In this document: positions 2,461-44,293 of the stretch, in pieces
How positions within the stretch are numbered: the first letter of the stretch is position 1
Layout of the letters: each line of letters starts with the position of its first letter
From: Cenococcum geophilum 1.58
Lineage: Eukaryota; Ascomycota; Dothideomycetes; Gloniales; Gloniaceae
Direction of reading: 5' to 3'
Length of the DNA stretch: 64,000 nt
Assembly: GCA_001692895.1 (NCBI GenBank)
Contig: KV748242.1
Location: forward strand, 744,001-808,000
Position numbers and translations under genes: made by a program
Notes under the pieces: model-generated
Databases searched by the model: none
What the model was told of the DNA's origin: nothing
What the model saw: the letters and a program-made list of their open reading frames with translations, nothing else

Positions 2461-2537
2461 TGAACCGGGGAGTAGCTCGACTTGGGGAGGCGAGGTTGCG
2501 CGGGTCAGAATCTCTTACACATTAGCAGTCTTCACCA
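2461..2537. promoter_or_regulatory. Remnant of divergent promoter, dehydratase side
   Basis: These 77 bp of ordinary base composition lie between the dehydratase start codon and the first base of the transposon terminal repeat. This is all the native upstream DNA the gene retains in this window. Together with 44181-44293 it makes about 190 bp, a plausible complete spacer between two divergent fungal genes. No clear TATA box was seen. Confidence 0.5.
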
Positions 2538-3228
2538 CTGCGTGCACGGTCCCACTCAATGCACGGTTTTTCCTCACCAAAATTTGCCCAAATACACCTT
2601 TTTATACCACCCATAACTTAATAACCTTTTAATAAAAATTTATAAAACTTTTTATATAGCTTATCAAATACTAAGGCTATAATTTTATATAAAAATATTA
2701 TAAAATATTATAAAATATTATAAAATATATATACTTAAAATTAGGTTAAAAAAGTACTTTTTTAATAAAACTTAATAATATTAATAATATTAATAATAAA
2801 GCTACTATATAGCTAGATTATATATATCTAGATTTATTATATAAGTGAGCTTTTTTAAATATATTAGTAACTAGCTTATATATATAATTAGCTTATATAT
2901 AGTTCTAAAAATCATTCTAAAAAATTATATTTAAATGCTTATAACTTAATTACTATAATAGCAATTAATAAATAAAAAATTAATATAGCTTATTGTATAG
3001 TAGATATAGGTATTTATAAAATAAAAGTTAAAAAATATTATTGGTTATAACTTGAAATAAAGAAGCTTGCTTTTTATATATATTAAAATTTTTCAATTAT
3101 TATATTAGATATAATAATAAGCTTAATTATATTTTTTATACTTAATTTTACTTATAGTAAAGTATTTTATATCCTTAATTTATTATATAAAATCTTTATT
3201 TATAATATAAATATATATATTTTAAGTA

Positions 3229-5368
3229 GGCCGTCGAAAACGGATTCTGCACCTATACGTGGTGATGGCTACGAACCTAGGTCTTCGAAGTTCAGACCCA
3301 GAGCCAACGCAGAGACGTTGCACAGCGCGTGCAAGTAGGACCTGGTGGTTGTGTGCGTTGTGGGGCGTAGTGAAAAGTTTTCACATGGGATGGTAAGATC
3401 TCGAAAACTACTACTAACGGTACCCCTTTATAATATAGCCACTAGTTCTCCTACCAAGCACCTATATAATCTAACGTGGATAAATAGCTTTTAAAAGCAT
3501 CCCCTAGCCCCCAATGGAAAGCATTAACGACCTTATATTAACGGATAAACGAGCGTATAAGCGAACGAACGAACGAGTAAATATACGGCCCCTCCTAACC
3601 CCTAGGGCAGTCGCCCGCGGAGCATGCGGTTACTCGCCGTTTTTAACTACTAAATACTACCTAGCAGCTTAGATTGCGACCCACGGTTTTCCCTATCTCC
3701 TTTTAACGGAGTAGTAACCCTTAGAGAGGGCCTAGCTAGGGCCTAGGCATAAAAGATACCCAAATACATAATATCCCGCTCGCTTATTAGTATTACGGTA
3801 GTTAGAATGGATGAATCCCCCTTACGCCTTTAATGGATCTAGGGGGGGGGAGGTAAGGCGTATATAGCAGTAGTTTATATAAGAGATAGCATATAGGGGA
3901 TGGGTAAGATATGGGATATAAAGAGACAATAAGACATAGCAATTGATTAGCAAGGCCTAGCTGGGACGTAGTAAACCCTAGCTTTAATAAGCTAGAGAAG
4001 GAAGTAGTGGTTTTTAAGGAGTTTAAAACATCTAAGGAGGAGGACGTGNAGTAGGCCNNTAGGGCCGCTGCTANNTNCAAACATGGCAAATTGGGGTTTT
4101 TTATCCTACTAAGGCTGCTTATAGGGTTTTTCCTCCCCCAACTACAGGGTTTTCTTCATGTAAATTATAAGTTTTCCCCCCTATAACGGAGTAGTCTGCG
4201 TAGGCTAAGATAGGATCCGTATCAGACGTTAATTAAAGAACTACTACTATATATTTTAAGTATATTAAATTTTAATATAATTTATTTAATATATTATTAA
4301 TAAACTATATATATATTAAAAACACTTATTTATATAATATATATAAATATATATAGTAGTAGTAATTCTTAATTAACGTCTAATATAGATCCTATCTAGG
4401 CCTACGCAGACTACTCCGTTATAGGGGGAAAACTTATAATTTATAGGAAGAAAACCCTGCAGTTTAGGGGAGGAAAAACCCTATAAGCCACCTTAGTAGG
4501 ATAAAAAACCCCGGTTTACCATGTTCGTCCATAGCGGCGGCCCTATAGGCCTACGGCTACGTCCTGTCCTCCTTAGATATTTAAACTTCTTAGGAACTAC
4601 TACTTCCTTCTCTAGCTTATCCTAGCTAGGGTTTACTACGTCCTAGCTAGGCTTTGCCGTTTAATTGCTATACACTTATAGTTATATTCCGTATTTTAAC
4701 CACCCCCTATATACTATCTCTTGTTAACTATTGCCATATACACTATACCTCCCCCCCCCCCTAAGGCCTATTAAAGGCGTAAGGGGGATTTATCTATAAA
4801 CTATTATACTAAAAGGTAAGCGGGATATATATACCTAAGTATCTTTTATACCTAGGCCCTAGTTACTAGGCCCTTACTAAGGGTTACTACTTTTTAAAAG
4901 GAGATAGGAAAACTATACGGTGTTATTTAGGCTGCTAGGTAGTATCTAATAGTTAATAGTAAGTGACCGTATACTCCGCGGGCGATTGCCCTAAGGGTTA
5001 GAAGGGGCCGTATATTTGCTTATTGCTCATTCGCAATCGCTTGTTTGTTAACGTAAGAGGTCGTTAATACTCTCTATTGGGGGTTAGGGAATGTTATCGA
5101 ATGCTATATATCTATGTTGGATTATATAGGTGCCTTAATAGGAGAATAGTGTTGTTATTATTGCTATAAGGGGCACTTAGTGGTTGTTTTTAAGATCTTA
5201 CTATCCCATATAAAAACTTTTTACCACTGTCCATAATACCTATAACCACCACCACTAGGTCGTATCGTACGCTATACGACGTCTCTGCGTTGGCTCTGAG
5301 TCTAAACTTCGAAGACTTAGGTTCGTAGCCGTCACCACGTATAAGTGCAGAGTCCGTTTTTGACGGCC
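3229..5368. repeat. Inverted pair of a 1.0-kb dispersed repeat
   Basis: The left arm (3229 to about 4245) and right arm (about 4359-5368) are reverse complements with scattered differences, separated by about 110 bp of AT-rich spacer. Each arm starts from the outside with GGCCGTCGAAAACGG or a close variant. A third copy sits in element E at 35489-36497. The arms contain a homopolymer run (G in the left, C in the right) and no convincing protein frame; the longest reading, 95 residues with ambiguous bases, matches nothing I recognise. Flanks are (TA)n-rich, so target duplications cannot be judged here. Confidence 0.75.
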
Positions 5369-5437
5369 TATAAATATATATATAATCTAGCTATATAATA
5401 GCTTTATTAATAGGATTATTAATAATACTAAGCCTTA

Positions 5438-5622
5438 TATCACGGCACTGACCTGACGCGTTGTTATGGCTTGTGTACGCGTATGTATGAGTACGGACCT
5501 AACCCCTAACCGACATATATATACCGACTCACCTCCTATATAGATCCTTACACGACATCGTTTGTCAATTATATACAGTCACCTCGTACATTGTACCTTG
5601 ACAGTCCGCACGTACTGTGACA
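5438..5622. mobile_element. Solo-LTR-like element 1 (185 bp)
   Basis: A GC-richer segment within AT-rich DNA. It begins TATCACGG (ancestrally TGTCACGG, by comparison with the element at 43807) and ends ACTGTGACA, so the TG...CA ends form an inverted repeat. It is flanked by CCTTA on the left and CTTTA on the right, a 5-bp duplication with one C-to-T change. It interrupts the right arm of TIR element 1: the sequence on both sides joins to match the left arm. No internal coding region is present, as expected of a solo LTR or a tiny TRIM. Confidence 0.7.
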
Positions 5623-5772
5623 CTTTACTAAAAAAGTACTTTTTTAACTTAATTTTAAGCATTTATATTTTATAATATATTATAATATTTTTATATAAAA
5701 TTATAGCTTTAGTATTTAATAAGCTATATTAAAAATTTTATAAAATTCTATTAAAAGGTTATTAGGTTATAG

Positions 5773-7430
5773 GTACCTATACTAATATTATTAATAGCTT
5801 ATATAACGATATACTACGCCTTAGCCTAAATATACACCTTAATATACTGCCCCTTAGCTACCTAAGACCTGTAAGGACCTAATGCCATAGATATTAATAC
5901 TAAAACCCTCTCCTCTACCCTAAAAGGGTCTATTAAATAAGAATGACATATTAAACTTAGCCTTTACTTTAAATGCGGAAGTAACGCTTATATCTTAAAA
6001 TACTGCTCCGTTTTTATGCCTTAATACAATTTACAAACGGCTAATACCAGTGGCTGTTTACTGTATTAATCTTCCGGTTACCGTCTCTAATTTTTATCTA
6101 ATTCTAGCCCTATATCTAGTAAGTACTACTTATAAGAACAAAGCTATAACCGGTATGATATAAGAACTCCGCCCTAATTGCCTCTAAAAGGAAGGTCCTA
6201 GAGCTAAGTCGCTCTTTAAAATGGCTCTGCCTTAGGATCTCGTTAAATGCTTTAAATGTTATAAACTCTAACTCTTAGGATTATAGTATAACCGTTAACT
6301 GTTATCTTTGGCAGAATAATTAATAGGTTAATGCTTAAGCCTTAATTAATATAGGAGCTAGTAGTATAGGATTTATTAATAAGATCTTTGCGTAAGATAA
6401 TAGTTTTACCCTAATCCCCCTTAACCAGTATATTAACGTATTTAAATTTAATAGCAAACGTACTGTTTTAGGTTATATTACCTATATAGTATTCCTAAAA
6501 CTCTAATACCTAAACTATAAAGAATTAATTAAACTTTTTATTACTACCCTAGGTTACTTAGTAATCTTTAAATAACCCTAGATAAAGCTATATAAGGTAA
6601 CCATTAATTAGAACAACCTTAAGCTTCTATTTACCGCCTCCTGTTATAAGTAGAAGTGCTTTATAACTTACTACTTAGACCTAAAACCGAAATCTAAAAA
6701 ATCTACTAAAATCTGCTAGTCTAAAATTTCTACTAACATCTAAGAAGTCTACCTAATTTTACTAGTCTAGGAATTTTACCGAATTCCACTAATATAAGAC
6801 TTCTACTAATATCTATTAAGGATCTAGAAATTCCACTAAACCCTATAAATAGACCCTAAGTACTATACTACCCCGCGTTAAGTAAAAGCTTAAGCTTACT
6901 ATACAAAAATACTAGAAGGACTAGTACTCTACTATAAAGAGTATACTTAAAGAACCCGAACCTAAATCTAATACTAACTCTATACTTAATACTAAACCTA
7001 AAGCCGAACAAGAATCTATATAAGAAACTATAGATAACCTAAGTAAGCTTAATACCCTAAATATCCGTATAATTGGAGCTACCCCGCTAGCACAACTTAT
7101 TAAGAAACCTAAATATATAATCTTCGCTATTATAATGGCCAATAATAAGAAGGCCTTAGTACTAAAGAAGTATACTTACCCTGCCATAAAGGTACTAGTA
7201 AAGTATTATTACCGCCTAGATATATTTTTTATAAAAAAAAGCTAATAAGCTACCGGAATACTAACTATATAACTATAAGATTATAGTTAAAGAAGGAAAG
7301 CAGCCTAGATTTAGACCCTTATATAGGATATCCTAAAATAAACTCTAAGTGCTATAAAAGTATTTAGACGAGAACCTAAGTAAAGAATTTATTAGAGCAA
7401 GCTCATTGCCTATAGCCGTACTAGTAATCT
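5773..7430 (+). pseudogene. Gypsy C gag C-terminus, protease and start of reverse transcriptase
   Basis: A degraded CCHC knuckle near 5965-6010 reads FKCGSNAYILKYC, where a Tyr stands in the His position. A protease-like stretch follows near 6345-6560, with ASSIGFINK where an active-site Asp-Ser-Gly would be expected nearby. The 5' part of reverse transcriptase begins near 7090. Dozens of TAA/TAG stops occur where Gln or Trp codons are expected. The frame is cut at 7430 by the LTR of element A. This is the oldest coding layer in the block. Confidence 0.75.
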
Positions 7431-7633
7431 TATTAGGCTATAGAGACACACTGGCCATAACCGGCTTAGCGCAGGCGAGGCGCAGGCGAGGCGCCTACAA
7501 AACGTAGTCGCCCCGCATTAGAGAACAGCAGAATTTAGTTCTACAGTTCTACTTTATTAAGAACTAGAAACTCTTTGCATCCCGCTACTATTATTATATT
7601 ACTACATGCCCTAAGGACCTTAGCGTCCTAACA
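7431..7633 (+). repeat. 5' LTR of element A
   Basis: This 203-bp repeat pairs with 13816-14015. Differences are nearly all C/T or G/A, plus a 3-base length difference near position 7600. This copy carries more of the T/A states, so it looks more RIP-mutated than the 3' copy. Confidence 0.92.
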
Positions 7634-7847
7634 GTACTAAATTCTTATCCCTTTTTAAGGGTAGTGGCCCGACAACACAGCGGTCTACAAAGGCCACGAC
7701 TACGTAGTAGCAACCCTCTGTTAAGAAGACGACCTGTATTTATTAGCTATATCGCAGCCTATTAACCTAATAGCGAGACGCGGGTGTACTAGCGTAGTGC
7801 GTAATACTAAGTCTAGGGATCGGCCCTAGGACAATATAGGCGAACCT

Positions 7848-8990
7848 ATGTCGTCCCGGACAGAACCGGAAGCTACGGATAAAGGGAATATATAGGAAGA
7901 AATACAACGGCTAGAAAACGAGAAGCTACAACTCCTAGAGTAAAGAAAACTATACTCGCTTAGGGAAGAGGTGGAAGTGCTAAGACGGCGTTAATGCGGT
8001 AAGGTAACGTCGACTCCCGTTCCTAACCTAGATTTATAACCTTAAACTATCCTATTAGAGTACTTAGATAGTAGCCAGATGCGTCTAAACCTTAAGCAGA
8101 AGGCTACTAATATAATAGGCGCTCCGTTAAAACGGGCCGTTAAAATAGAGAAGATTGCTCTATATTATGATAAGACTATATAAGAGCACCAAGACTTCCG
8201 CGATAGCTTAAAGCTAGCATTCCGCCTAGAGCACGACGGCTTCGCGGATAAGGATACTAAAGTTGCGTTTACTATGCAATATATAAAGGAGACCAACCGA
8301 ACCCTTTAGCTATAGTATAAAGATAACTACCTAGACACGTAATTTACCTGGGAGGAGCTAATAGAATTCCTACTTAACTAAATTAAAAGTCCTATTAATC
8401 GAGAACTCCATATAGCCCTAATATATGCGAAGGCAATGCAGCGAACCAATTAACTAGTAAATAAGTTTGCTGCTTACCTAACCTCCTTAAAAGCGTAAAT
8501 TAACCCTCCTTATAATGCAAAGCATTTAATAATACATTTGTTTGTGAAGCTATAGCCAAAGCTACGGGTTGCTATTACCAACTATTAAGAATTCCCTTAA
8601 ACTTGAGACCAGCTAGTTTCTCTAGCTGCCCTATTAGAGGAAAACTAGAAGAGTGTAAGCGCCCTATAGGGTAGAAGCAATAGGCGCGCCGTAAACTTAA
8701 ATACAAAGACTACCTAGCTGGGTAACTTAGGGAGAACGGACTCTAAAACCACCGCCGGTAACTTAACGGCGGGGCGAAGTAATACCGCTGGGGGTTTGAC
8801 TTAGCCTAAAGGAAACTACAAAAATTATGGCAAGCTAGGATATTAGTAGCGATAATGCCCGGAGCAGTAATAGCAATAGTAGCCGCCACTAAGCAGTATA
8901 AACGCCATCTCTACGCTGGGAAAAGGTAGGCGCCCTCGGAGCCCCTTATACCTATAGGGCGTAAGCTACTACTAGATTGTAAGGAAGCTA
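7848..8990 (+). pseudogene. Element A gag
   Basis: Read from an ATG at 7848. A charged N-terminal coiled-coil-like segment comes first (Glu/Leu/Arg-rich, about the first 50 codons), then a capsid-like region (for example FRDSLKLAFRLEHDGFA near 8200). A CCHC zinc knuckle remnant lies at about 8814-8860, where Cys and His codons have become Tyr but GKLGY and a final Cys remain. In-frame TAG/TAA stops replace Gln or Trp. It is in a different frame from pol, which would fit a frameshift between gag and pol or a later indel. Inactive. Confidence 0.75.
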
Positions 8991-8999
8991 TTACTGTCT

Positions 9000-11900
9000 T
9001 AGGTAAAGTCCTTTTTAAGCAGATCTAAAAAGAGACCTTAGTAATGCTTAACATCGGTGCTAAAGTAAATGTAATTAACTAGCGATTTGTAATAGAGTGT
9101 AACTTTAAAACACTAGACGCAGAATTGCCTACCTACTTCTAGTTAAATAAAACTTAGGTATATTACTATAAAGCCTATAAGGTACTATTACAAATAAAGG
9201 ACAGCTGGGGTAGGATTAGGGAAGTAACCCTTATCTGCTATAGAATGGCTAACGCATCCCCTACTGTTACCCTAGGTATACTAGGGTTAAAGAAGGCCTA
9301 ACTTCTTATTAACTATAAGGCGAAGGTATAGTAATGGAAGCTAGATGGCTCGTCCCTGTTGCTATAAACCCCTAAGGGTTTTGTAGAGTCTCTTTAGAAG
9401 GAACCTAGGGTCTTTACCCTAGTGGTTGCTGGATTAATACCTAGCAAATAAGACGACGGCAGCTTACTAGTTCTTCCCCTATAGTTAAAAGAAGCTAGCG
9501 ATGTCTTCTTATATAAGGAAGTAGGAAAGCTACCCTAATACTATTAGGGTAACTATACTATTAACCTAGAAGAGGGATAGGAGGCCCCGTATGGACCGCT
9601 TTATAACCTCTTAGTTAAGGAGCTGGAGGTACTAAGGGAGTACTTAGATAATACCTTAGCTAAAGGCTAGATCTAACCAAGTACTAGTCCCGCAGGGGTA
9701 CCTGTCCTATTCGTACCTAAAAAAGATAGAAAGCTATAGCTCTATATAGACTACAGAGGCCTTAATAAGGTAACAATTAAGAATTATCTTGCACTACTAT
9801 TAATTAGTAAGACCTTGGACCGCTTAGCAGGTTCTAAAATCTTTACTAAGTTAGACCTAATAAATGCGTACCACCGCCTTTGTATCCGTTGGGGTAATAA
9901 GTAGAAGACGGCGTTCCGCACGCGTTACGGCCACTTTAAGTATTTAGTTTTGCCTTTTAGGTTAACTAACGGACTAGTGACCTTTTAGGGCTATATTAAT
10001 TAAGCCTTGTTAGGACTAGTAGACGTCTTCTGTATGGTCTACCTTAATAATATTCTAATTTTCTCTAAAAATCCAAAGAAACACTGGCGCTACATACTAG
10101 AAGTGCTACGTAGGTTGCGGTAATATTAACTATATACAAACCTTAAGAAGTGCAGGTTTAGCGTACAAGAGGTTAAGTTCCTAGGATATATTATTAGTCC
10201 TAAAGGTGTAGCGATAGATCTTAGCCGGGTAGAAGCCATTACTAAGTGGAAGAGCCCTTAATCCTATAGGGATGTCTAGGTCTTTCTAGGTTTTGCCAAT
10301 TTCTATTACCGGTTTATCTATAAGTACTCTACTATTGTGAAGCCTATTATTAATCTCCTTAAGGGAGTAAAGAACGGCCGTAAAGCTAGGCCTTTTAGTT
10401 AGCCAGAAGAGGTAGAGCAGGCGATACGCCGGCTCTGCGACGCCTTTACGACGGCGCCGCTTCTGCGACACTATACGCTGGGCTTACTAACACGGTTGGA
10501 AACTAATGCCTTAATATAAGGCCTAGCAGCTATTATATTATAGCTGTTTAAAGACGGCCTTTAGCATCTAATAGCCTTCTAGTCTAGGAAGCTTTCGCTA
10601 GCAGAGCGCAATTATAAGACCTATAATTAGGAGCTACTAGCTATTATAAAGGCTTTTAAGCATTAGAGACACTACATTAAGGGGCTATTAAGCCGCCTAG
10701 AAGTGCTTATAGACTATAATAATCTGAAGGGTTTTATAAAAGTAAAAGCCCTTAATGGACGGTAAGCCAGATAGGCTATAGCATTAGCTGCCTATAACTT
10801 TGTTATTAAGTATAGGGCGGGAAAAACAAACCCCGTAGACGCGCCGTTAAGGCGACCCCTAGGCGCAGGGGGTCCGCCAGAAGAAGACACTATGCTACTA
10901 TTGCTCTAAAGGACTTTGGGAATATAGGGCCACTAACCTAAGGTAAAAGTCCTATTAGGTGTATAGGAAAGCGAGCCTTCTATAGAGGTGTCGTTTCTAT
11001 AGCTATAAGCCGGCGACCTAATAGCGGTACGCCTGGGCCATATAGCATTACGGTTTAACTAGGCAACCTATACGTATACCGTTAAGCAGCGTGTAACGAG
11101 AACCTAAGTTAGAGAAGCTAGTACTTAAGAGAGTGCTTATAAGTCTAGTACGGAAATAGTTGTTAAGCTTATTAAAGGACTTTAGACTAAAGATAACTTT
11201 ATGCTGCAAAAGCGTAGCAACAGCATAGATACGGCGAGACGCCGTTAACGCGCCCGCTCGAAGCTAGTATAGTAGTTTAATTCCGCTAGACTACTTTATT
11301 ACCACGGGAGGTTATATATACCCTTAAACCTAGCAGTTTGTGCAGAACTCCTACAGATCTACTACGATAATACCCTAGCTGGGCACTTTAGTAAGAAAAA
11401 GACTCTAAATCTACTCTCGCGTAAGTACTACTGGCCTAGTATAACTGCGGACGTTATAAACTATATCTCTACCTATAATATATACCAACGTATACATACG
11501 CCTTAATATCGCCCTTATGGTAAGCTCTAAGCGCTGCCTTACCCAGAACAGCTATGGTAGGAAATTACAATGGACTTTATTATAGGCCTACCGCCTAGTA
11601 AACGAGGCGATAAGGTATATAACGTAATATGTGTAATAGTCAACCGCTATACTAAGATGGCCTTATATCTGCTAATAGTAAAAACTATTACTATAACCAA
11701 ACTCGCGGATCTCTTCCTTAATAAAGTAGTACGCCGTTTTGGAGCCCCTAGGGGGATTATATCTAATCGCGGCAGTATTTTTACCAGTAAGTTCTGGTTG
11801 GAGCTATGCTTTACTGCGAAGATAAAACATAGGCTAAGTATAGCCTTTTACCTATAAACGGACGGGTAAATAGAACGCCAGAACTAAACCCTAGAGTATT

Positions 11901-12658
11901 ACCTCCGTGTGTTCTATAACGAAAAGCAGAGCAATTAGGTAGGCCTTTTATTGCTAGCTAAATTCGCCTATAATAATGCTAAATATAGCACAATAGGTAT
12001 AAGCCCATTCTATACCTATTATAGGTTTCACCCGCGTCTAGAATATAAGGTTTAGGCAGACGATAGTAGTTCTATTCTAGCCGCCTTTAAGAGGATTAAA
12101 AGAATATCCCTTAAACGCGAAGCGTTAGTAAAACGCTAGGAGTACGCCGCCGAGGCGCAGGTAAAATACTATAATCGTCGTTACTAACTACAGGTATACA
12201 AAGTAGGGGATCTAGTCTTACTATTAACTAAAAACCTTAAACTAAAAAGGCCAAGTAAGAAACTTATAGCACACTTTATTGGACCTTTTAGTATAGCTAA
12301 ACTAGTCGGAAAGTAAGCATACCAGCTATATCTACCTATGTCTTACCGTATCCACCTAGTGTTCTATATTAGCTTGCTAGAGCTATATAAATAATATAAG
12401 GGCATTACTAGAGACCCTCTCCTAGGGCCTATTAAGCTAGATAATTAAGAGGACTAAGAGGACTAATATAAGATAGAAGAAGTATATAGAAGGAAGGGAC
12501 GTAACTAAACCCTATAGTACCTAGTTAAGTAGAAAGGCTGGCTAAAAGAGTATAATAAATAGGTCCTAGTAGAGGACATTAATAAGGACGCAAAGGAGAC
12601 ATATAATAGTTACTTTACCCTAAGGGGTAAACGGAAAAGAAAGTAGGTGGAAGAATAA
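9000..12658 (+). pseudogene. Element A pol: protease, RT, RNase H, integrase, chromodomain
   Basis: One frame can be followed from about 9000 to a stop at 12656-12658. Protease is near 9044, where the active-site DSGA reads NIGA. Reverse transcriptase spans about 9600-10300, with PVLFVPKK, the catalytic YxDD reading YLNN, and FLGFANFYYRF. RNase H follows (about 10480-10830). Integrase runs about 11340-12000, with the first Asp kept (MDFIIGLPP), the second changed to Asn (ISNRGSIF) and the Glu region kept (TDGQIERQN). A chromodomain-like end lies at about 12468-12610 (QYLVKQKG, IEEVYRRKG). The mutated catalytic residues are G-to-A changes, as expected of RIP. A chromodomain is known to guide chromoviruses to heterochromatin. 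Confidence 0.88.
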
Positions 12659-12779
12659 AAAACTTTTAATTATAACTAATATTACGCCCTACTAGCGGGG
12701 CGATAATGGAACGACGGTAAAGTAATAGTAGTACGCTAATAGAAATATAGATACTCTACAGCTCCAACAAATCCTCCCT

Positions 12780-13560
12780 TTCCTCCCCTCCTTCCTCTTC
12801 CTCCTCCTCCTCCTCTCCCTCCTTATCCTCCTCCTCATCCTCCTTACCCTTATCCTCCTCCTTATCCCTTATAATGGGAGGCATATTAGCCTATAGGTAC
12901 TATTAGTATACGCTATAACGGCGAAATACCTGCGCTATAATATGTACTAAAGCGCGCATTACGTTAAGAATTCCTTTGAGAGTATAACGGATAGCCTATA
13001 ATTCCTGTACTTAGAGTAGGGAAAAGTCTTCGCCCTTTAGGCGCTGGCGGAGACCGTACTTAGCGCCGGTGCGCACTAAGGCCTTAATATCCTTTGTAAA
13101 GGACTTCTGGGCGGTAGCAACGCGAGCGTTAAGGTTAGCTATGTCTCCGCCAGTAACCCGCTAGCGCTTAGCCCTATTAATAAGGGCGAGCAGCTTATTT
13201 AGGCGGCTATAGAAGGCCTTAGGGACCTAGTCTGTTAGCTATTAAAACCTAAACTAATGTACTTAGACGTACTAGTTAGTACGACTTATTTAGTTATTAG
13301 TAGTACCCGCAATTGCGGTTAGCCTGCTTGCCGTAGGTAGCCCGCCTAGTAGTAGCTACATGCTTAGTGTAACGGAGACAGATTAGTTCTAGCAAAGCTA
13401 GGGGAGCGGCTTATAAGCGGCGTAGGAGCTTTGACGGCGCTTAGTAGGGTTAGCGACAGCTATAAGCTAGTATAAAGAATACTTATAGAAAGCTCGCGAG
13501 TAGGCGAACTGACAGCTTAGCGCTTGCGATTTATAATTAATTAGAAATTGTGGAGAAGGC
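12780..13560 (-). pseudogene. Antisense reading frame in element A, unknown product
   Basis: Read on the minus strand from about 13560 to about 12780, between the pol stop and the 3' LTR. After allowing for stops at likely former Gln or Trp codons, the frame gives a coherent polar protein: VPKAFYSRLNKLLALINRAK, then GGDIANLNARVATAQKSF, then TGAKYGLRQRLKGEDFSLL, ending in a long Glu/Asp/Lys-rich tail. The polypyrimidine run at 12772-12880 on the plus strand is this acidic tail seen from the other side. I do not recognise the family. Extra antisense frames are known in some plant retroelements; function here is unknown. The start codon is not clear. Confidence 0.5.
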
Positions 13561-13815
13561 GAGTCGTAGGCTAAAAAAAAATCGGAATGGACTTAGAAGG
13601 GAAATCTGATATCCTACCTAGGTAAGAACTCCTACCTTTATAGATCTCTATAAGGTCCTATTATTATATTATCCTATTCTTATATTATCCTATCGTTACA
13701 TTGTCTGATTTACTTAAATTTATTAAAAACTTTTTATTTAGAGAAGGACAATAATAGCACTCCTATTATATAATAGCGTCGGCTAAGGACAGCCGCTTAA
13801 GAAGGGGGGGGCAAT

Positions 13816-14015
13816 TATTAGGCCATAGAGACGCACTGGCCATAACCGGCTTAGCGCAGGCGAGGCGTAGGCGAGGCGCCTACAAAACGTAGTCGCCCCG
13901 CATCAGAGAACAGCAGAATTCAGTTCTACAGTTCTACTTCATCAAGAACCAGAAACTCTTTGCATCCCGCTATTGTCACGTTACTACATGCCCTAAGGAC
14001 CTTGGCGTCCTAACA
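13816..14015 (+). repeat. 3' LTR of element A
   Basis: This 200-bp repeat ends CCTAACA and is followed by the AATCT duplication. It retains more C and G than the 5' copy, and is preceded by a G-rich polypurine tract. Confidence 0.92.
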
Positions 14016-14775: not shown

Positions 14776-15059
14776 TGTAGCTAGAAGCGTTGGACATATC
14801 GCGAGGACGGCTAACGCGCTAGTGGTAAGCGAACCAATAGTGCGATGGCAGAATATGGTAGAATATGGCAGGACACGGCTAATACACTAGTGGTAAGTGA
14901 GCCAATGGCGAGGTGGCAGAATATGGCAGAACATGGCAGGACGCGCCCAATATATATGTGTGACGCGCGTTATAAGTAGAAAAACAATCCACTAATAACA
15001 CCGCATAGTATATATTATTATAATATATATATTCTGCACGTTGTTAAAGCATACTAACA
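14776..15059 (+). repeat. 5' LTR of Copia B
   Basis: A 284-bp repeat. The LTR carries internal near-repeats of the type GTGGTAAGYRARCCAATRG and AGAATATGGCAG. Confidence 0.88.
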
Positions 15060-20254: not shown

Positions 20255-20349
20255 GGCAGGGAAGGAAGGGAGGAGAAGTGTGTATATGGATTTCTCGGAC
20301 TATATAGTTGTAGCCTACTAGTTCTTTGTATTTTCTAAAGTACTCCCAG

Positions 20350-20633: not shown

Positions 20634-20638
20634 CTTAT

Positions 20639-30400: not shown

Positions 30401-30440
30401 GTTGTTTAACTTATTGAAACCGTAACTGTGGTAGTAATTG

Positions 30441-31245: not shown

Positions 31246-31248
31246 TAC

Positions 31249-32771: not shown

Positions 32772-32972
32772 CTTAATACGTTAAAGGGTGGGTCTACTAT
32801 AAGCGCTAATATATAATTTTTATATAGAATAGCCTTAGCTAAAAATATAAGATTATATAGTAGGATAAGCGATTTTAGCTCAGTTAACCACGTAATCTTT
32901 TAGCTCAGGCTGCCCCGTGCAGGGATTGTGCATTAGCGCTCATAGTAGACCCACCTTTTAGCGTAGTAAGAC
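32772..32972. mobile_element. Small MITE-like inverted-repeat element (about 200 bp)
   Basis: Terminal inverted repeats of about 40 bp, at 32772-32810 and 32932-32970, share GTAGACCCACC and ATTAGCGCT. The loop holds two copies of TTTTAGCTCAG about 20 bp apart, and the short palindrome CCCCGTGCAGGG. No clear target duplication was found. No coding capacity. Confidence 0.5.
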
Positions 32973-34254
32973 CAACCTGCATCCACCTTTCCACCTTTCA
33001 CTGAACCCTCAACAGCTCTTTCAGCCGGCCACGAGACCGTCATCGGGTCGTCAGACGGAGCTTCCCTTATCTAGCGTGCCCGAGCGATGGGATTCTCGCC
33101 ATCTTTGACCTCTTTATCGACGTGGTCGGATCTCTTTCCTTCCTTTGTTTTCGGTCTATGCCTAGAATAGTATCAGATCAACCTTCTGGAGCTGTAGATA
33201 CGCGGCCCAGGCCCGAAGTAGACCTTTCCAGAGACCGTATGCTATGCATGCGGCTAATGTCTGTACCTTTACAGGGAAGCTCTGCATTCCTTCCAATGGT
33301 GCTAGCAGTAGATGCAGCTCCATGTACGAAGGCAGGTGTAGATCGAGCAGGTAGAGCGGTTCGTTTACTAGAGGTAGTCGCCAAGGTTGCAGGTGGGTGA
33401 AATAGCAGGGGTTAGGTTGGCGAGAATCACGTGATGCGTATAATCTTCAAAAATAATCCCAATCGAGGTTGGATTGATCGAACAGGCCGCCCAAGTGAAC
33501 ATACAGGACCCCCCCTTTTCTACGGAGGGTGCAGGTGGAATTCCACCTTTTCGATAGCCCAGGCGGGCAAAATCGCGCAATCTATACTACTTTTGGCTAT
33601 GTAATCGCGACAAGCGCGAGGACGTCGAACAGGCCGGGTGGAAGTTAATTTCGGCTGCCAAGACGACCCAGCGGGCGGAAACCGAACAAGTGAGGTAAAC
33701 AAGCAGCTCCTACCTGTTGGATATTTGATCGACCTGGAAATATCGGCCTGTTCGTTCCAGGTGGGTTTTTTGGGCGGCGAACAGGTGAAAAAAAGTTAGT
33801 CACCGAGTCCTAAATGGGATACCAATTATATATAGCCGCACGAACGTGCCAGAGAGTACGAAAGCCGACGGTTTTGAAAACGATGCATCTGCTAAAACGC
33901 AAGGAATGCCAAAATCTCTACCATTTGGAATTCGTATGCAGTTTCAACCTAACACCCAAAACTCTTAATTAAAGTACTATGCGATAGAGAAGAAGCAGAT
34001 TAGTGATTCCCCAGAACCCCGCGATAGTTAAATTCAAGGCGCAATTGCTATTTGTTATCGCGGGCCTAGAATGCGCAAAATACTCGCTTAAAAAATTGGA
34101 CGCTTTTCAAAACCCCTGCACGAGCGCTTGCTAGTGGCGCTTACTATCCACCTGTTGGACCTTAATTGATCCACCTGGCGGCGTCGACCAGGTGAGCGCG
34201 AACAGGTGAAAAAAAGTTAGTAAACGAGGCCTTAGGTAGGGGTCCTCCCCCTCC
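32973..34254. other. GC-normal island without a recognisable gene
   Basis: This 1.3-kb stretch has near-normal base composition and retains CpA and TpG, unlike its flanks. Short frames on both strands near 33120-33700 overlap each other and match no family I know, so I call none. Two direct copies of a segment of roughly 80 bp end in GAACAGGTGAAAAAAAGTTA at about 33713-33800 and 34148-34222. Within each, CACCTGTT or ACCTGTT and AACAGGTG face each other as inverted repeats. This could be a short non-autonomous DNA transposon or surviving host sequence. Confidence 0.45.
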
Positions 34255-34909
34255 ATGCACGGTCCCACTCAATGCACGGTTTTCCTCACCAAAATTTGCT
34301 CAAATACACCTTTTTATACCACCTATAACTTAATAACTTTGTAATGGAATTTTATAAAATTTTAAATATGGCTTATTAATACTTTATTTGTAATTCTATA
34401 GGAAAATTTATTTAAAATATTAAAATTTTTATACTAAAAATAAGGCTAAAAAAGTACCTTTTTAATCAATAATATTAATAATATTAATAGACCTATTATA
34501 TAGCTATATTATATATAAATATATAAGCATTAGATAAATAATTCTTTTTAATATCTATTAAGTCCAATAGCTGCATTTTTATATAAGTTATAATATAATT
34601 TATATTTATTTATATTTATATATTTATATTATAAATAAAGTTATAATATTATAATTAAAAGCTATAATATGCTTTATAAGAACTAAAATTGGTTATTAAA
34701 AATATAATATAGCTTATTATTATATTTAATAAAATATTTTCAAATATTTACTATATAGAGTTTTTTTTGTTTATGCTATAATATATAATTTATTTTTATT
34801 TTTATATTATAAAAAGCTTAAGTTGCTATAAAATAAGCTATATTTTAGTTTTGATATTAATCGCTATTGTGGTTATTTAGTTATAAGTATTTAAAAATGC
34901 TTATATTTT

Positions 34910-35330
34910 TATTACAGACGCTTTAAGTACAATATTATAACTACTTAAAGAGGAGTCGGAAGAAGCTAGTTAGTTAATTTAGGTACAGTTTAGGATGGAG
35001 CCGATAGAGCTATATAATAAGGAATGGTAACTAAGGTTATATAATGTAATTTGTATAATCTATAAGATTTATATAATTTATAATAGAGTAGATAGAATAT
35101 ACGTACCTTACGTACTAAGGGGATTTCTTAGGAGTATGGTTGTGTATTTAAAGGACCACAGTCCCTACTTAAATAGTTCTCTTCTTTATAGTAAATCTTA
35201 GAATATAATTAGAGTTAATCTATTAAGCAACCACTCTACTAGTTATTATTACGTTATTAACTTCTTATTTACCTATATACCTAGCCTATTAGTAAGTTTA
35301 CCGTAGTTCCTGCTATAAGGCTTTATTACA
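34910..35330 (+). repeat. 5' LTR of element E
   Basis: A 421-bp repeat starting TATTACAGACGC (ancestrally TGTTACGGACGC) and ending TTATTACA. Confidence 0.9.
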
Positions 35331-35371
35331 CATTTACTACTAAGGTTATAGTATTAACAAAGTTAAATAAT

Positions 35372-38300
35372 ATGCTACTAAAAGCAGCCACTATAACGCT
35401 ATTAATGGCGGCAACTACTTTAAGGTTAGTTAGCGACACTAGTATAGTAGATACTAACTTATAGTAACCTATAACGGTTAGATAATTAGTAGTAATTCTT
35501 AATTAACGTCTAATACGGATCCTATCTAGGCCTACGCAGACTACTCCGTTATAGGGGGAAAACTTATAATTTATAGGAAGAAAACCCTGCAGTTTAGGGG
35601 AGGAAAAACCCTATAAGCCACCTTAGTAGGATAAAAAACCCTAGTTTGCCATGTTCGTCTATAGCGGCGGCCCTATAGGCCTACGGCTACGTCCTGTCCT
35701 CCTTAGATATTTAAACTCCTTAGGAACTACTGCTTCCTTCTCTAGCTTATCCTAGCTAGGGTTCACTACGTCCTAGCTAGGCCTTACCGTTTGATTGCTA
35801 TATACTTATAGTTATATTCCGTATTTTAATCACCCCCCGTATACTATCTCTTATTAACTATTACTATATACGCCATGCCTCCCCCCCCCCTAAGGCCTAT
35901 TAAAGGCATAAGGGGGATTTATCTATAAACTACTATACTAAAAGGTAAGCGGGACGTGTGTGCCTAAGTATCTTTTATGCTTAGGCCCTAGTTACTAGGC
36001 CCTTACTAAGGGTTACTACTCCTTAAAAGGAGATAGGAAAACCGTATAGTGTTATTTAGGCTGCTAGGTAGTATTTAATAGTTAATAGCGAGTAACCATA
36101 TACTCCGCGGGCGATTGCCCTAGGGGTTAAGAGGGGCCGTATATTTACTCGTTGCTTATTTATAATCGCTCGTTTATTAATATAAGAGGTCGTTAATGCT
36201 CTCTACTAGGGGTTAGGGGATGTTATTAAATGCCGCGTATCCATATTAGATTGTATAGGTGCCTTAATAGGAGAATAGTGTTATTATTATTGCTATAAGG
36301 GGCACTTAGTAGTTGTTTTCGAGATCTTACCATCCCATATAAAAACTTTTTACTACCGCCTATAATACCTATAACCACCACCACTAGGTTATATCGCACG
36401 CTGTACGATGTCTCTGCGTTAGCTCTAAGTCTAAACTTCGAAGACTTAGGTTTGTAGCTGTCACCACATATAGGTGCAGAGTCCGTTTTCGACGGCCCGG
36501 TTAGATAATTATAAGAGATAGTTAACTAGCTAATAGAAAATAATATAATGTTAGAAAATAGGATTAATGGGATAGGAGTAGTAAAGATTAAATTACTATT
36601 AATTAAAAGGTACTTAGGGGAAAGATTAAAACTTAAAGGATTTCTTATATAAATGCACTTTAAGGTTATATAAGAAGGAGTAAAGCTGCTAATACCTATA
36701 GATTGAATAGTATATACGGGACTATTCCTATTAAGGAGGGCACTTAAGTAGTTTAAGCTTTACCTTATAGAGATATAAGCGAATGGTATAATAACTACTA
36801 ATTAAGAAGTATGGTTTATATTTATAAACTAGGAAGGGTTTACGGGGCGACTTATATAGATATTTAGAGACCTAGAGGTAGTAACTATAGTAAAAAAAAA
36901 ACTCTAAAACATTATATAATAAACCTTAGTAATTAAGTATATAACGCAGTTCCAGACGTTAGCGATATAAGTTAAGTGGAATAATAAGGCGCTTATGGTA
37001 TAGTATAAGTAAGGACTTAAGGCTAAAGTCTAGGACGTAATTATTCTAATAAAAGATGTGGAAACCCTACAGGAACTAATAGATTAAGCGATTAAGATTA
37101 ATAATTGAATTTACTAAAGGGAATAGGCTAAGAGAGGCTAGGATAGAGTTTTATAGTTATATAAGGCGTAAAGTACGTAATAACTAAAGTTAAGTTAAAA
37201 ACTATAGTATAGCGCAGAGCTAATAGACCTAAGTAGTACTAAAGAATTTAAAAGATAAAATAAGAAATTATGGAAACCTAAAGGATAAGGATTAAGTAAT
37301 TAAAGGTTTAAGGAGTAAAGGCTAAACTAGGGATCTTAGTAGTAGAAGACGTTTAGGCGGACTCTATAATAAGAAAAATGGTTTAAAAAAGGAGCTTATA
37401 TAAATTGCGGAAAATAGGGTTATTACGTTAAAGACTATAGAAGTGGGTAAAGTTACTATATAGTAAAAGGAATAAGACTAGTAGATAATATATATATATA
37501 GAGGGATAATAATATGCTATAAGGAACAAAAGAATATTTAATTAAAAGTTTTGCGTTTTGTTATAATAACGTATACTAAATTTATAAGGACGCTAAGTAC
37601 GGCGTAAGCTATTAGCTATAAGAGCTATATTTAGCGGAATATAAAGAAACTAATAAACCAGTTTATAGATTGGATATTAAGGATAATAAATTTAATATAG
37701 GTAAAACATTTTATAATAATAAGGTAATAAAGGCGGCTTACTAGGAGTATATAAACCTCAGAGATATTATATAAGAGGTAGAGAATAATTCTACTATAGA
37801 ATAGGGAATATTAGTAGGGATTAAGACCCTACTAGATATAATATCTATTACTTTATAAGACGTAAGAGAAGTAGGGTAGTAAATTACTTTGGTACTTAAT
37901 AAAGGTAAAAGGCCAAAAGCTTAAGATTTTTAAGACAAGATATAAGATAACTAAGATTCTTAAGACAAGATAAGGTAAGCTCAAGGACCTATAATAGACA
38001 ATAACTAATAGAGCAGAGTAATAGCTTAGTTTAGTAATATATAAATAAGCTTAGGATAAAGTTTCCTAAAAATATAAGACTCTTAAGATAAAATAAGTAA
38101 GATTTAAAACTCTTAAGATAAAATAAGAACACTAAGTAAGCCTAGTTAGACTAAGGCTAGAGTAAAGCTTAAGATAGAAGTAAGCTTAGGATTAAGAATC
38201 CTATAGAACTAAGATTTCTAAATATAAATAAGGACTATTAAATAAACTAAAATTAAGAAGTATAAAGACTTTAAGAATCTAAGCGCAAGACGTAAACTAA

Positions 38301-41300
38301 AAAAAACTATAAAAGAATTTAGATAAAGAATTATTGTATAGCAAGAACAGAAACTAGATAAGAAATTTAGTATATTAGGACGTACTAGGGACAGAGCGCT
38401 AGTATAAAGAATTACTAATAGGCCTAGAGCAGGTATACTAAGAGCTAAGTAGCTTACTAAACTAGAAAATAAAGAGGATCTAGGAATCCCTACTAGATTT
38501 AAAAAATAATATATAAAAGGCTATTATAACGCAGTAATAAGAAGATACTTCCTTATGGATAAGCCGTATATACTCTAGCAGCTATACTAAAAGTGGTATA
38601 GGCAATAATATAACGATAAGTGGGAAGATTTCTATATATAGTTAGATAAAAGAGTTATCTAAAACCACCTAATTATAGAAAAGGCTATAACTTATATTAA
38701 AGGAGCCTTAATTATAATATTAAAGGATCTAGAGGAATAATTAGAGGACTAGAGAAGCGAGAGACGCATCTTAGTACTTATAAATAAAGTTATAACGTTT
38801 AGATTAGCATAATAAAGGTTTAAACTTAAAGATAAAAATAAGTTAAGAGTTAACCTAAAGCACCTAGTATACTATACGCTATTATAGATTATATATATAG
38901 ACGATATATATAAGATATATAAGAATCTAAAGGAAAAGAATTAGAAGTACTCTATAAGGATATATTAGGCACTAAATAAGTAATAGTATAGAAATGCTAA
39001 GTATATATATAGTTAGCATTTAGCGGAAGTTTAAGAGTTAGAAGACTTAATATTTTAACTAGAAAAATTCCTTATAAAAGAATACTTAAACGGATAATAG
39101 TAATGGGAATGCCTAGAGAATATATATCTATAGTATATTAAAAATAAAAAGCAAACTAGGTATTGGCTAAAGAACGAGCTAAGTATAATAGGATTAAGTA
39201 GCTAATAGTTAGGAAAAGTGGAGGCCTATAGGACTAAAGGGAGCTAGTAGTAGAGCCTTAGACCCTTAAAGAAATTTCAGGATAATACCTAAATTTATAA
39301 GTTAAATAGTAAGATTAACAGTTTAAAGCGCTAATAGATAGTGGAGTAACGCGGAACTATATCTTACTAGTAGTAGTTAAGAGAATAGGACTACCTTATA
39401 GATAGAAGGAATAACCTTACCTATTAGTTATAATTTTAGGAGATTTAATAGCCTATAAAGGAGGGATTATNAATCTTAAAATAGGACCTATTTAGATAAC
39501 TATTAAAGGAAGATAAATTAAGATNTCTTTTAATATNCTACNATTAGGANNGGATAAGGCNNTATTAGGTATNCCTTAGTTATAGGAATATAATCTAAGG
39601 ATTAATTAGATTATAGGTTAGGTCGATATTAAAGATACTTAACGCTATAAGATATAATAGTAAACTAAGTTAGTATAGTACTAAGTTAGAGTAATATATA
39701 AAGAGACTAAGCGAGGCTTAAGTTATATACTAAAAAGATATTATAAGTATGGCAAGAAACTATAGAGCCTAAAAAGTAAAAAGCTAGCAGATTATATAGC
39801 ATAGGACTATAAGATAGAGTTAGAACTAGAAATAAATCTAAGGTTCTTTCTAACCTATAAGCTTACTTAAGAGGAGGCAAGCGCACTTAAAGAGTTTGTT
39901 TAAGAGAACTTATAAAAGGGATATATTAGACTATTATAGTTATTAGTAGGTTATCTAGTATTGTTTATACCAAAGAAGAACGGAAAACTTAGGTTATATA
40001 TTAACTATAAATAGTTAAATAGTATTACTCGGAAGGATAGGTATCCTTTACCCTTAATTAGCGAAATCTAAGACCAAATAGGTAATGTGTAAATCTTTAT
40101 AAAAATAGATCTAAGATAGGCGTACCATTAGATTAGAATTAAGGAAGGTAATAAATAAAAAGCAGCCTTTAGATTAAAAGAAGGACTATATAAGCCATTA
40201 GTTATATAATTCGGATTAACGAATATACTAGCAATATTTTAGAAATAAATTAATAGCGTATTAGGAGAATACCTTAATAAGTTTATTATAGTATACCTTA
40301 ATGATATTATTATCTACTTAATAACTAAGGAACAANACGGGGAACACGTTAAATAGGTCTTAAAGAGACTATAAGAAGAATAGATGCTAGTAATAATTAA
40401 GAAATGCGAGTTCTTTATAAGGAAGACTAATTTTATTAGATTTATTATTAAACTAGGTTATATTAGTATAGACCTAAAGAAGATTAAAGCTATAGTAAGT
40501 TAGTAAGAACTAGAGAATGTAATATAGTTAAGGTTATTTTTAGGGTTTTATAACTACTACAGAAGGTTTATAGCACAGTGGTTAAAGAATATTAAACTAT
40601 TTACTAGGCTTATAAAGAAAGAGAAACTATAGGTATAGGGAGATAAATAAAAAAAGTTATTTAAGGAACTTAAGGAATTGTTTACCTAGAAGCTAATCCT
40701 TAAAATTTATTAACTAGGACTAGACACGGTTGTAAAAACGAATATATTAAACTATGTATTAGGAGTATACTTACTATAGAAGTATAAGGACGTATAGCAC
40801 CTAGTAGCATACTATAGTAGAAAGATAATACCACTAGAGTTAAACTATAACGTCTATAATAAGCAGTTATTAGGTATAGTTACAGCACTTAAGGAATAGA
40901 GAGTATTCTTATAAGGCGTAAAGAAACTATTTATAGTTAAGATGGATTATAAAAACCTAACGGGGTTCCTAATAATAAAAGAACTTAATTAAAAACAAGT
41001 TAAATAGGTAGAGATACTTATAGAATACCATTTTAAAATTTAGTATACTAAGGGAACTAAGAATATAAGAGTAGACGCACTTAGCAGAAAAGCTAAACTA
41101 TAAAATAACGAGAAACTATTAGGAGCAATACTACGCAGAGATAAGGATAGATTAATTAAATATAATTACCCTAAGTTAGTAATAACTTAAGAGGATAATA
41201 AACTAGAAAGAGTCTATAAGATACCAGAAAGCTTTTAGGTATAAAGAATTTTTAAAGCACAATTAGAAGAATAGTTAGAATATCTAGAAGAAGAAATATT

Positions 41301-43355
41301 ATATAAGCATAGAGAAGTAAAGTACATCCTAAGAAGTATAGTAGAGCATTTTATAGAAGATTTCTATAAGGGAATAACTTAAGGACATAATGGAGTAATA
41401 GGCTTAGTGTTAAGACTTTAAGAAGAGTATATTATTAANNAAATCTAGAATATTATAAGAAAAGTAATAAAAGAGTATCTAGATTGCTAAAGGAATAAAC
41501 TAATAAGGTATAAGCTATATAGAGGGCTACAACCTATTAAAATACTATAGAGACTATAGGAGGTTATATTTTAAGACTTTATTATTAAGTTACTAAAGTT
41601 AAGAAATCTTATTACTAGATAAGATTATAACGTAATCTTAGTAATAGTAGACAAGTTAACTAAATAGGGCTACTTTATAGCATGTATAAAAGAAATCTCA
41701 GCGAAGGATATTACTAGAATCTATATTAAAGAAGTGTTTATAAGACACGAAGTACTAAGTAAAATTATATTAGATAGAGATCTAAGATTTATAGCAATAT
41801 TCTAGGAGGTATTTTTAGCGAAGCAAGAAGTTTAAGCAGTAACTTCTACCGCATATTATCTATAGATAGACGGTTAAACGGAAAGGTTAAATTAGACGCT
41901 AGAACAGTATTTAAGATATTATATTAATTACGTATAGAACAATTAGGTATTATTATTACTAGTTATATAGTTTATATATAATATAATACTATAGGAAGGA
42001 ATAGGTATATTACTATTTAAGGCAAATTATGGATATAAGCTAAGAATATTATTATTACTATGGTAAGTAAAGAAAACGAGTAGTATAGCTAAAGAAAGAA
42101 TAAAGACGTTAATAAATCTTTATATAGACCTTATAGAATTANTAAAGAANGTATAANANANAATAAAAANGTANTATAANNCTAANAGATCTAAGGGACN
42201 AGATCTTAAGNAGGGAGATAAAGTATAGCTACTATATAAAAATTTTAAGAGTTAACGACTAAGTAAGAAGTTAGACTATGTTAGACTAGAACCTTTTAAA
42301 ATTACTTAGAGGATTTTACCAGTTATATTTAAGTTAAACCTACTAGCTAAAATAAAGATCTACCCTATATAATATATTGCAATACTAGAACTAGCATATA
42401 GGAATATTAAACCACTAGTTTATAAGGTAAACACGTATAAAGGACAAGAGAAAGACAAATAGTAAGTTTTAAAGATCGTTAGTTATAAGGACATTAACAA
42501 TAAAATATAGTACGAGGTTAAGTAGATAGGCTATAAAAAGACTACCTAAAAGCTACTAAAGAATTTAAAAAATGCTATAAGAAAGGTATAGGAGTATTAA
42601 AAGAGATTAGGTTAGGTAGTATTAATAAAGAAGAATTGCTAAAGAATAAGTTACTTAAGGGGGACCTAAGAAGAGTAGTTGCCGAACTACTTAGATCTAT
42701 TTCCTTCTTAGTTAGAAGAGAATCCGTTCTTTTATTACTAAGTTCCTATAAACCTTATTTTATAAGTTTTTACTCTTTAAAACGAACCTTCTTATAAACC
42801 TTTTTAAGATAGATTAACTAAGTAAACGCAGCTAGATAAGAATTAAAAGCCCTTTACTAAGCTTTAGCAGCCTCTTACTTAGTATTATAAAAATAATAGA
42901 GTTCTAATAATATAATAGATAGTTTATTATCTAGCTATATAGCAGCAGATTAAATATAAAACCTTAAGATAAATTAATTAAGAAACCAGACGACTACTAA
43001 AAGTAATAAGTTACGTATATTTAGTATTAGAGACAGAGTAAACGTTATAGGATAAATAAATATTTACTTTAGTGCACTCTAAGTAAGAGGACGGTTATTG
43101 TAAAGATAGACTTGCTAGCGCAATATAGACTAACCCCTTTTTTAAATAGCAAGAATATAGAGACGGTATAATCTTACTAAGAGATAATATCGCAGTAACG
43201 GTATAAGATTAATAAGTAGTAGATAAAGAGGAAGGAGCCTTAGGTATAATAAGCAACAATATTAACTAAATTAATTAGACGGATATTATACCTCTAGTAA
43301 ATAACTTAGAGATATTTAGGATTTTTAAGAACAAAGATAAAAAGGAGGGAGATGG
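35372..43355 (+). pseudogene. Element E gag-pol
   Basis: Starts at an ATG at 35372, in the same context as element D gag. It is interrupted at 35489-36497 by the 1-kb repeat. A zinc knuckle remnant lies near 37395-37440 (YINCGKQGYYVKD). The protease site near 39310 is intact as IDSG. Reverse transcriptase contains VYLNDIIIY near 40300, one Asp changed to Asn. Integrase lies near 41450-41900 (ILDRDLRF, DGQTERLNQTLEQYL). A chromodomain-like end is near 42465-42600 (YEVKQIGYKK). Gln and Trp codons are widely turned into stops. Confidence 0.83.
35489..36497. repeat. Third copy of the 1.0-kb dispersed repeat, inserted in element E
   Basis: A 1009-bp segment matching the right arm of the inverted pair at 3229-5368. 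It is bounded by a 14-bp direct repeat, CGGTTAGATAATTA, at 35475-35488 and 36498-36511. Element D, the sister copy, has no insertion at the same place, which gives an empty site for comparison. No terminal inverted repeats, no poly-A tail and no clear frame were seen. Confidence 0.8.
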
Positions 43356-43776
43356 TATTACGGACGCTTTAAGTACAATATTATAACTACTTAGAGAGGA
43401 GTTAAAAGAAGCTAGTTAGTTAATTTAGGCATGGTCTAAAATAGAGCCGATAGAGCTATATAACGAGGAATGGTAACTAAGATTATATAACGTAATCTAT
43501 ATAATCTATAGGATCTGTATAATCCGTAATAGAGTAGATAAAGTATACGTACCTTACGTACTAAGGGGATTTCTTAGGAGTACGGTTGTGTATTTAAAGG
43601 ACTACAGTCCCTATCTAAATAGTTCTCTACTTTGTAGTAAATCTTAGAATATAATTGGAGTTAATCTATTAGGTAACCACTCTACTAGTTATTATTACGT
43701 TATTAACTTCTTGTTTACCTATATACCTAGCCTATTAACAAGTCCACCATAGTTCCTGCTACAAGGCTTCGTTACA
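43356..43776 (+). repeat. 3' LTR of element E
   Basis: The same length as the 5' LTR, but with more TpG and CpA retained. It ends CTTCGTTACA, followed by the ATTTT duplication. Confidence 0.9.
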
Positions 43777-43806
43777 ATTTTGGTATATTTTAGTACTATA
43801 TACAAG

Positions 43807-43978
43807 TGTCACGGATTCCGACCGTAGCACCGCCAAGGGCTCGCCTAGCGAGCCTTGGCACCCACAGTATATAGAGCCACGGTGCCTTCGCACCTCTTTG
43901 CACCTTCGTGCAATATCCTGTCGTGTACATAGCCAATGCTACGACGTTCCCAGAGCCTCCTGACCGCGCTCCGTGACA
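43807..43978. mobile_element. Solo-LTR-like element 2 (172 bp)
   Basis: Begins TGTCACGGATTCCG and ends GCTCCGTGACA, a 9-bp inverted terminal match with TG...CA ends. Perfect 5-bp duplications ACAAG lie at 43802-43806 and 43979-43983. It contains an internal palindrome around GGGCTCGCCTAGCGAGCC. It is GC-rich and nearly free of RIP changes inside strongly mutated DNA. Its ends resemble those of the element at 5438, but the interiors differ. Confidence 0.78.
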
Positions 43979-44180
43979 ACAAGCCAGTTACGTATACAAG
44001 CTAATTAGTGTTTTATTATATATTTTTTATCATATAATTATAGTTTTAGTATTTAATAAGCCATATTAAAACTTTATAAAATTCTATTATAAGGTTATTA
44101 AGTTATAGGTAGTATAAAAAGGTGTAATTGAGTAAATTTTGGTGAGGAAAACCGTGCATTGAGTGGGACCGTGCACGCAG

Positions 44181-44293
44181 GGGGGCAAACCTCTAATCTG
44201 CAAACATTGAATGGAAATTTTCCAAAGTGTGATTTTGCTACCCAGAACTGGGATACCCTTTTGCTGCGTTAATAGAGGTCCACGGTCGCCACC
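44181..44293. promoter_or_regulatory. Remnant of divergent promoter, glucan lyase side
   Basis: These 113 bp lie between the transposon terminal repeat and the lyase ATG. Composition is normal. An in-frame TAG at 44273 limits the lyase start. This is all the native upstream sequence left next to the gene. Confidence 0.5.

Follow-up and report, generated by a model that had tools for sequence, protein, structure and literature searches.

The window analysed here, a 64,000-nt stretch of contig KV748242.1 of the fungus Cenococcum geophilum 1.58, contains an aldos-2-ulose dehydratase (AUDH)-type gene and a glucan lyase-type gene whose start codons (at 2460 and 44294) are separated by 41.7 kb of AT-rich repeats mutated by repeat-induced point mutation (RIP). 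Our analysis indicates that this block probably, though by no means certainly, arose as a nest of transposons in the DNA between two anhydrofructose-pathway genes of ancient linkage, by at least two insertions. Two copies of a terminal inverted repeat (TIR) family with a TA target would have entered in separate events, one landing 62 bp from the dehydratase start codon and the other 98 bp from that of the lyase. Long terminal repeat (LTR) elements and others would then have accumulated within and between the two copies, after which RIP would have driven the repeats to their AT-rich state. A single-copy island in the middle of the block would be the leftover of the old spacer, which would originally have measured at least about 0.5 kb. 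The ancestral genes would have been divergently oriented and may have shared their regulation, and their expression may now be separate or weakened. The coordinates of all features are collected in Table 1.

Block edges and the terminal inverted repeat family

The assembled genome was searched (177,193,698 bases in 162 contigs; the window corresponds to C67:744001-808000), and the outer ends of the block were found to match one repeat family (40 scored of 146 candidate matches). The termini of this family adjoined TA in all 14 complete left ends that were aligned, and the seven whole copies extracted from the genome, which ranged from 894 to 1448 bp with a GC content of 16-23%, had TA on both sides in every case. 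The family is characterized by terminal inverted repeats with a TA duplication; we take it to be Tc1/mariner-like, and it looks non-autonomous. Comparison with these genome copies set the block edges at 2525 and 44193. The original prediction had left 77 and 113 bp of non-repeat DNA beside the two start codons, and the family termini at TA corrected these stubs to 62 and 98 bp.

A motif scan combined with the seven-copy comparison identified left ends of the family at two places within the block, 2525 and 34239, but a right end at 44193 only. Copy A, which begins at the first left end, carries positions 8-990 of a 1,073-bp genome copy (L017) in order, interrupted by two approximately 1-kb repeats and a short insertion. 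Copy B, which begins at the second, can be read as one element: when LTR element 2 and a solo LTR were removed from it, 906 bp remained, and bases 1-898 of this remainder aligned in one piece with the 894-bp genome copy L030 (78% over an alignment with 94 gap columns, or 87% when gaps are excluded). Two insertions are favoured because copy B reads as a complete element, because copy A looks like a separate insertion that lacks its right end, and because single-copy DNA lies between the two.

RIP signature and the single-copy island

The composite RIP index was at least 0.33 in all 61 of the 500-bp windows covering 2501-33000 and at least 0.54 in all 19 of those covering 34501-44000. The repeats are RIP-mutated, with TA/AT raised and (CA+TG)/(AC+GT) lowered in 80 of 80 repeat windows. 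The index was mostly negative in the gene windows, with the exception of 47501-48000 (0.36). It was also low at 33001-33500 (-0.21) and 33501-34000 (0.00), and it is here that the island is located. A genome search with positions 32980-34238 as the query (40 of 53 candidates scored) found no second copy of the island, and a query of 32965-33345 alone returned one candidate, itself, in a search that skips very common words. Immediately to the right of the island, 33335-34236 consists mostly of repeats, and the idea that the GC-rich patch at 33-34 kb is wholly host DNA was rejected, 32980-33334 being its one part for which no second copy was found.

The island is most likely what survives of the spacer that once lay between the genes, to judge from its single copy and its low RIP index. 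If it is read in this way, the old spacer would have been at least 515 bp long (62 + 355 + 98). The original prediction had described a single transposon block inserted between neighbouring genes that shared about 190 bp. The transposon block stands, in that its repeats are RIP-mutated; however, it is not continuous, since 32980-33334 is single-copy and un-RIPed. Insertion of a single block into about 190 bp is probably wrong, because there are two TIR copies with single-copy, un-RIPed DNA between them.

Linkage of the gene pair in other fungi

Of 97 dehydratase homologues, 55 bear a fungal species name. Among the 120 lyase homologues listed of 444 matches, a partner sharing both species and contig was found for 21 of these 55 dehydratases, representing 20 species; a shared contig was defined as the same species with an identical longest-contig size, which for chromosome-sized contigs denotes the same chromosome only. 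Ten of the 21 linked pairs lie on contigs shorter than 200 kb. Three pairs carry consecutive locus tags (DL765_009768/009769, OQA88_11656/11655, and MMC25_006125/006126), and in a fourth the tags are two apart (SLS58_009886/009884). Tricladium varicosporioides has two pairs on two contigs, and both genes of Lepidopterella palustris are on one 81,958-bp contig. For another 28 of the 55, no lyase of the same species was present among the 120 listed, which says little. These results support the view that dehydratase and lyase-type genes are old neighbours, and this part of the original prediction is upheld.

The genome of C. geophilum has a single dehydratase locus (five of five genome-search matches fell here). 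The corresponding lyase search gave 14 matches, of which seven were at this locus (89-99%) and seven elsewhere (25-36%). A paralogous pair retaining the empty arrangement in the same genome was ruled out by this single dehydratase locus and the low identity of the other lyase matches.

The linkage elsewhere argues against a false assembly join within the repeats, by which the two halves of the locus would not be neighbours in the living genome. According to its description, the published assembly was built from short reads, mate pairs of approximately 4-4.5 kb, and gap filling with 3-kb PacBio reads, which is weak over 42 kb of repeats (PMC5023957), and 24 of the 26 runs of N in the window fall within the block. 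However, none of these is a long gap, and an assembly error would have had to bring back together exactly those two genes whose linkage is seen in other fungi. We regard a false join as highly improbable.

Weighing one founding insertion against two

Several observations weigh against growth by separate insertions between old neighbours. Six of the 55 named dehydratases have the listed lyases of their species only on contigs of different size (those of Elsinoe australis, Colletotrichum tofieldiae, Camillea tinctor, and Peziza echinospora and the second dehydratases of Thelonectria olida and Jackrogersella minutella); moreover, the comparison covers 120 of the 444 lyase matches, and the tables give contig sharing in relatives rather than orientation or distance. 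The right end of one further genome copy of the TIR family (L025) lacks TA, and the last approximately 83 bp of copy A, including its right end, were not found. An element could have carried the island in as single-copy cargo. For three LTR elements, the exact 5-base target duplication had several solutions in the AT-rich DNA, and those adjoining LTR-like ends were chosen. Finally, the terminal subtype is CTGC at 2525 and 44193 but CTCC at 34239, while a left-hand CTCC is matched by a right-hand CTCC in seven of seven intact copies that carry it, and 44014-44193 is nearer to the genome copy L013 (90%) than to L030 (76%). A later exchange could account for both the subtype mismatch and the closeness to L013.

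The terminal subtypes and the closeness to L013 also favour a different history, in which a single founding TIR element spanning 2525-44193 entered a 162-bp spacer (62 bp, TA, and 98 bp) and everything else, including the island, was nested inside it. An inverted pair of sequences, 2515-2705 and 44011-44203, was considered as the two ends of such a giant transposon, and TA adjoins both outer ends. Family ends also stand far apart elsewhere in the genome, for example at 2117615 and 2149177 of contig C20 (approximately 31.6 kb; interior not examined). We retained this explanation as a rival but consider it unlikely: copy B, stripped of its insertions, reads as one element that runs continuously along L030, and single-copy, un-RIPed DNA would have to have arrived inside a transposon. 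In addition, element positions of approximately 894-990 would be duplicated, since the stretch common to 5678-5775 and 44014-44111 would occur twice if the outer ends belonged to one element.

The dehydratase gene

The original prediction of a dehydratase reading left from 2460 was confirmed by our splice model, by Pfam, and by the structure PDB 4a7k. The start codon of the model occupies 2458-2460 on the minus strand, and its six exons encode 819 aa and extend 250 bp past the window; the introns of this and the lyase model were placed by hand at GT..AG. The protein is a member of the AUDH family by its beta-propeller (AUDH_beta_propeller, PF22301, 1.5e-75) and AUDH cupin (AUDH_Cupin, PF18637, 8e-104) domains, and residues 39-815 match the aldos-2-ulose dehydratase in 4a7k (4.9e-101). 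The AUDH family acts on 1,5-anhydro-D-fructose. The closest named relative is that of L. palustris (65%).

A spliced open reading frame (ORF), P0001, is 98% identical to the dehydratase and begins at codon 15 of the model (window position 2418). The start codon is uncertain in view of this ORF, and a start at codon 15 would make the left stub 104 bp long. P0001 runs unbroken across all five splice junctions and looks transcript-like, as does the lyase ORF P0098 described below, though it may come from another source or strain.

A search of bacterial genomes for dehydratase relatives found four Flammeovirga loci (L065-L068, 10001-11209), each in a different genome and encoding a protein that resembles the dehydratase over its first half. 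At E 1e-5, the 21.2-kb stretches around these genes gave no lyase match within 10 kb (four of four). A search of viral contigs for dehydratase relatives yielded 29 pattern matches, none of which was confirmed.

The lyase gene and its reading frame

The splice model and Pfam also bore out a GH31 lyase-type gene reading right from 44294. Its product, which includes one X arising from an N at 47362, contains a GH31 domain (5.5e-70). It is labelled a lyase after homologues annotated as glucan lyase: among the 120 listed of 444, some close ones bear that name (Rutstroemia, 60%), and many others carry the names alpha-glucosidase or GH31. The closest listed homologues with a species name are from Stromatinia and Rutstroemia (60%), and that of L. 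palustris stands at 56%. One match from Morchella vulgaris (P0199; 41%) has a name cut at 'alpha-1,4-gluc'. The algal lyase 2x2h ranked 12th of 53 PDB matches, behind alpha-glucosidases. The protein belongs to GH31, and its lyase activity is predicted from the names of its homologues.

P0098, a lyase ORF carried by a 3,535-bp contig, is identical to the spliced model over 872 residues and seven junctions; it then follows the frame of a sequence 2 nt shorter than the assembly, reaches a stop at 926 aa, and loses the C-terminal fifth. Applying the 2-nt shift to the model reproduced 925 of the 926 residues of P0098, the remaining one being the N. The longer frame is retained at this site in P0221, an ORF that is unspliced and comes from a close relative. 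P0220, P0221, and seemingly P0222 read through introns, and P0222 shares P0098's kind of source. Because these other ORFs from the same search run through introns, the gene caller seems to leave introns in place, which gives P0098 the look of a transcript. Spliced, transcript-like ORFs exist for both genes, though they may come from another strain. Both frames are open in this assembly, as originally predicted; the claim that they are intact is true for this assembly and not for all recorded sequences, given the truncated P0098.

The P0098 form may be a real allele of a lyase gene in decay since it was parted from its promoter, with the older frame kept in the assembly or in some strains. This possibility, which is compatible with the other explanations, is rather unlikely. 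The switch of P0098 from the model to the shifted frame is consistent with it, as is the lack of any other near-100% ORF among the 120 listed lyase matches. On the other hand, P0221 keeps the frame, and P0098 was seen at the protein level and may stem from another strain or sample; the 13 matches to the C-terminal 282 aa did not decide the matter of the frameshift. We think it rather unlikely that both genes are still transcribed with transposon ends in place of all but 62 and 98 bp of their upstream DNA, these stubs sufficing as core promoters or the TIR ends acting as promoters or heterochromatin barriers. If they are, one transposon family would have put two formerly co-regulated genes under separate control.

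Other insertions and surroundings

The two approximately 1-kb repeats in copy A face each other head to head across about 108 bp, and a third copy of this repeat is located at 35487-36497, within LTR element 2. The short insertion in copy A gave no clean target duplication. The LTR element at 7431-14015 has many genome copies at 87-91%. Two more imperfect palindromes (878 and 215 bp) occupy 31878-32978, immediately to the left of the island, and in the second the right arm appears by eye to be less RIP-mutated than the left. Three clusters (4049-4077, 39471-39573, and 42142-42211) hold 22 of the 26 N runs of the window, all in repeats, which suggests an unresolved repeat consensus.

Downstream of the lyase gene, past another AT-rich stretch, an ORF with an NF-YA (CCAAT-binding factor) domain lies at 54558-55820 on the minus strand, and one with a Pro-kumamolisin activation domain lies at 62420-63727 on the same strand. 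A search of Rfam at gathering thresholds returned no matches.

Table 1. Coordinates of the two genes, the block, and its components in the window
Feature	Position	Strand	Description	Basis
Aldos-2-ulose dehydratase-type gene, 5' part	1-2460	minus		Splice model, domain and PDB matches
Dehydratase exons	2460-2240, 2188-2067, 2020-1762, 1706-1602, 1547-1479, 1434 to 250 bp left of window	minus		
Non-repeat stub upstream of dehydratase ATG	2461-2522		62 bp, then TA at 2523-2524	Genome-copy comparison
TIR copy A	2525-5774		Element of approximately 1.0 kb, left end whole, interrupted	Alignment to genome copies
Two head-to-head repeat copies of approximately 1 kb	3229-4247 and 4357-5368		2.2-kb palindrome in copy A	
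Short insertion in copy A	5439-5623		Ends LTR-like	Alignment gap versus intact copies
LTR element	7431-14015		Target duplication probably AATCT	
LTR-element-like element	14778-20678		Direct repeats 14778-15098 and 20352-20678	
LTR element 1	22824-30864		Target duplication probably TTATA	
Single-copy island	32980-33334		355 bp, not RIP-mutated; candidate spacer remnant	
Un-RIPed rearranged repeat	33335-34231		33335-33824 plus inverted end 34112-34231; short repeat 33856-34114 inside	
TIR copy B	34239-44193		TA at 34237-34238 and 44194-44195; read as one element	
LTR element 2	34910-43776		Target duplication probably ATTTT	
Solo LTR	43807-43978		Target duplication ACAAG, sole exact solution in range scanned	
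Non-repeat stub upstream of lyase ATG	44196-44293		98 bp	Genome-copy comparison
GH31 alpha-1,4-glucan lyase-type gene	44294-48186	plus	11 exons, 1091 aa	Splice model and homology
2-nt-shorter site of P0098	47269-47274	plus	P0098 2 nt short versus assembly, frame lost	

Comparison with other fungal loci

In the Epichloe genomes described in PMC3585121, alkaloid gene clusters are split by AT-rich blocks of nested repeats. The loci described there and the one in C. geophilum have in common long, stacked or nested, RIP-mutated blocks between genes of the same pathway (PMC3585121). The Epichloe blocks include miniature inverted-repeat transposable elements, and their positions differ among strains and species (PMC3585121). 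In that work, however, multi-gene alkaloid loci were compared across many genomes, whereas we describe a two-gene carbohydrate pair in one genome. The genome of C. geophilum has been reported to comprise 178 Mb with 81% repeats and 14,748 gene models (PMC5023957); since this amounts to approximately 12 kb per gene by simple division, 42 kb of repeats between two genes is nothing unusual for this fungus. Glucan lyase does not occur in the main text of PMC5023957. From listings of the anhydrofructose-pathway literature, no fungal gene cluster was evident.

Tricholoma matsutake, a basidiomycete, offers another comparison. In the account given in PMC6980582, 83.2% of its 702 transposon-enclosed genes were not transcribed. 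The likeness is that transposons adjoin genes in a large ectomycorrhizal genome (PMC6980582); the difference is that in our case transcript-like spliced ORFs, which may be of another strain, exist for both genes.

The locus is a clear, fairly ordinary case of transposon growth and a well-placed example of a phenomenon that is already known. It offers a natural test of the effect of a transposon nest on a conserved gene pair amid RIP-mutated repeats, as the breakpoints are closely placed, each gene is confined to a single locus, and linkage of the two is seen in 20 further named species of fungi. The possible frameshift in the lyase gene bears on whether the fungus still uses the anhydrofructose route.

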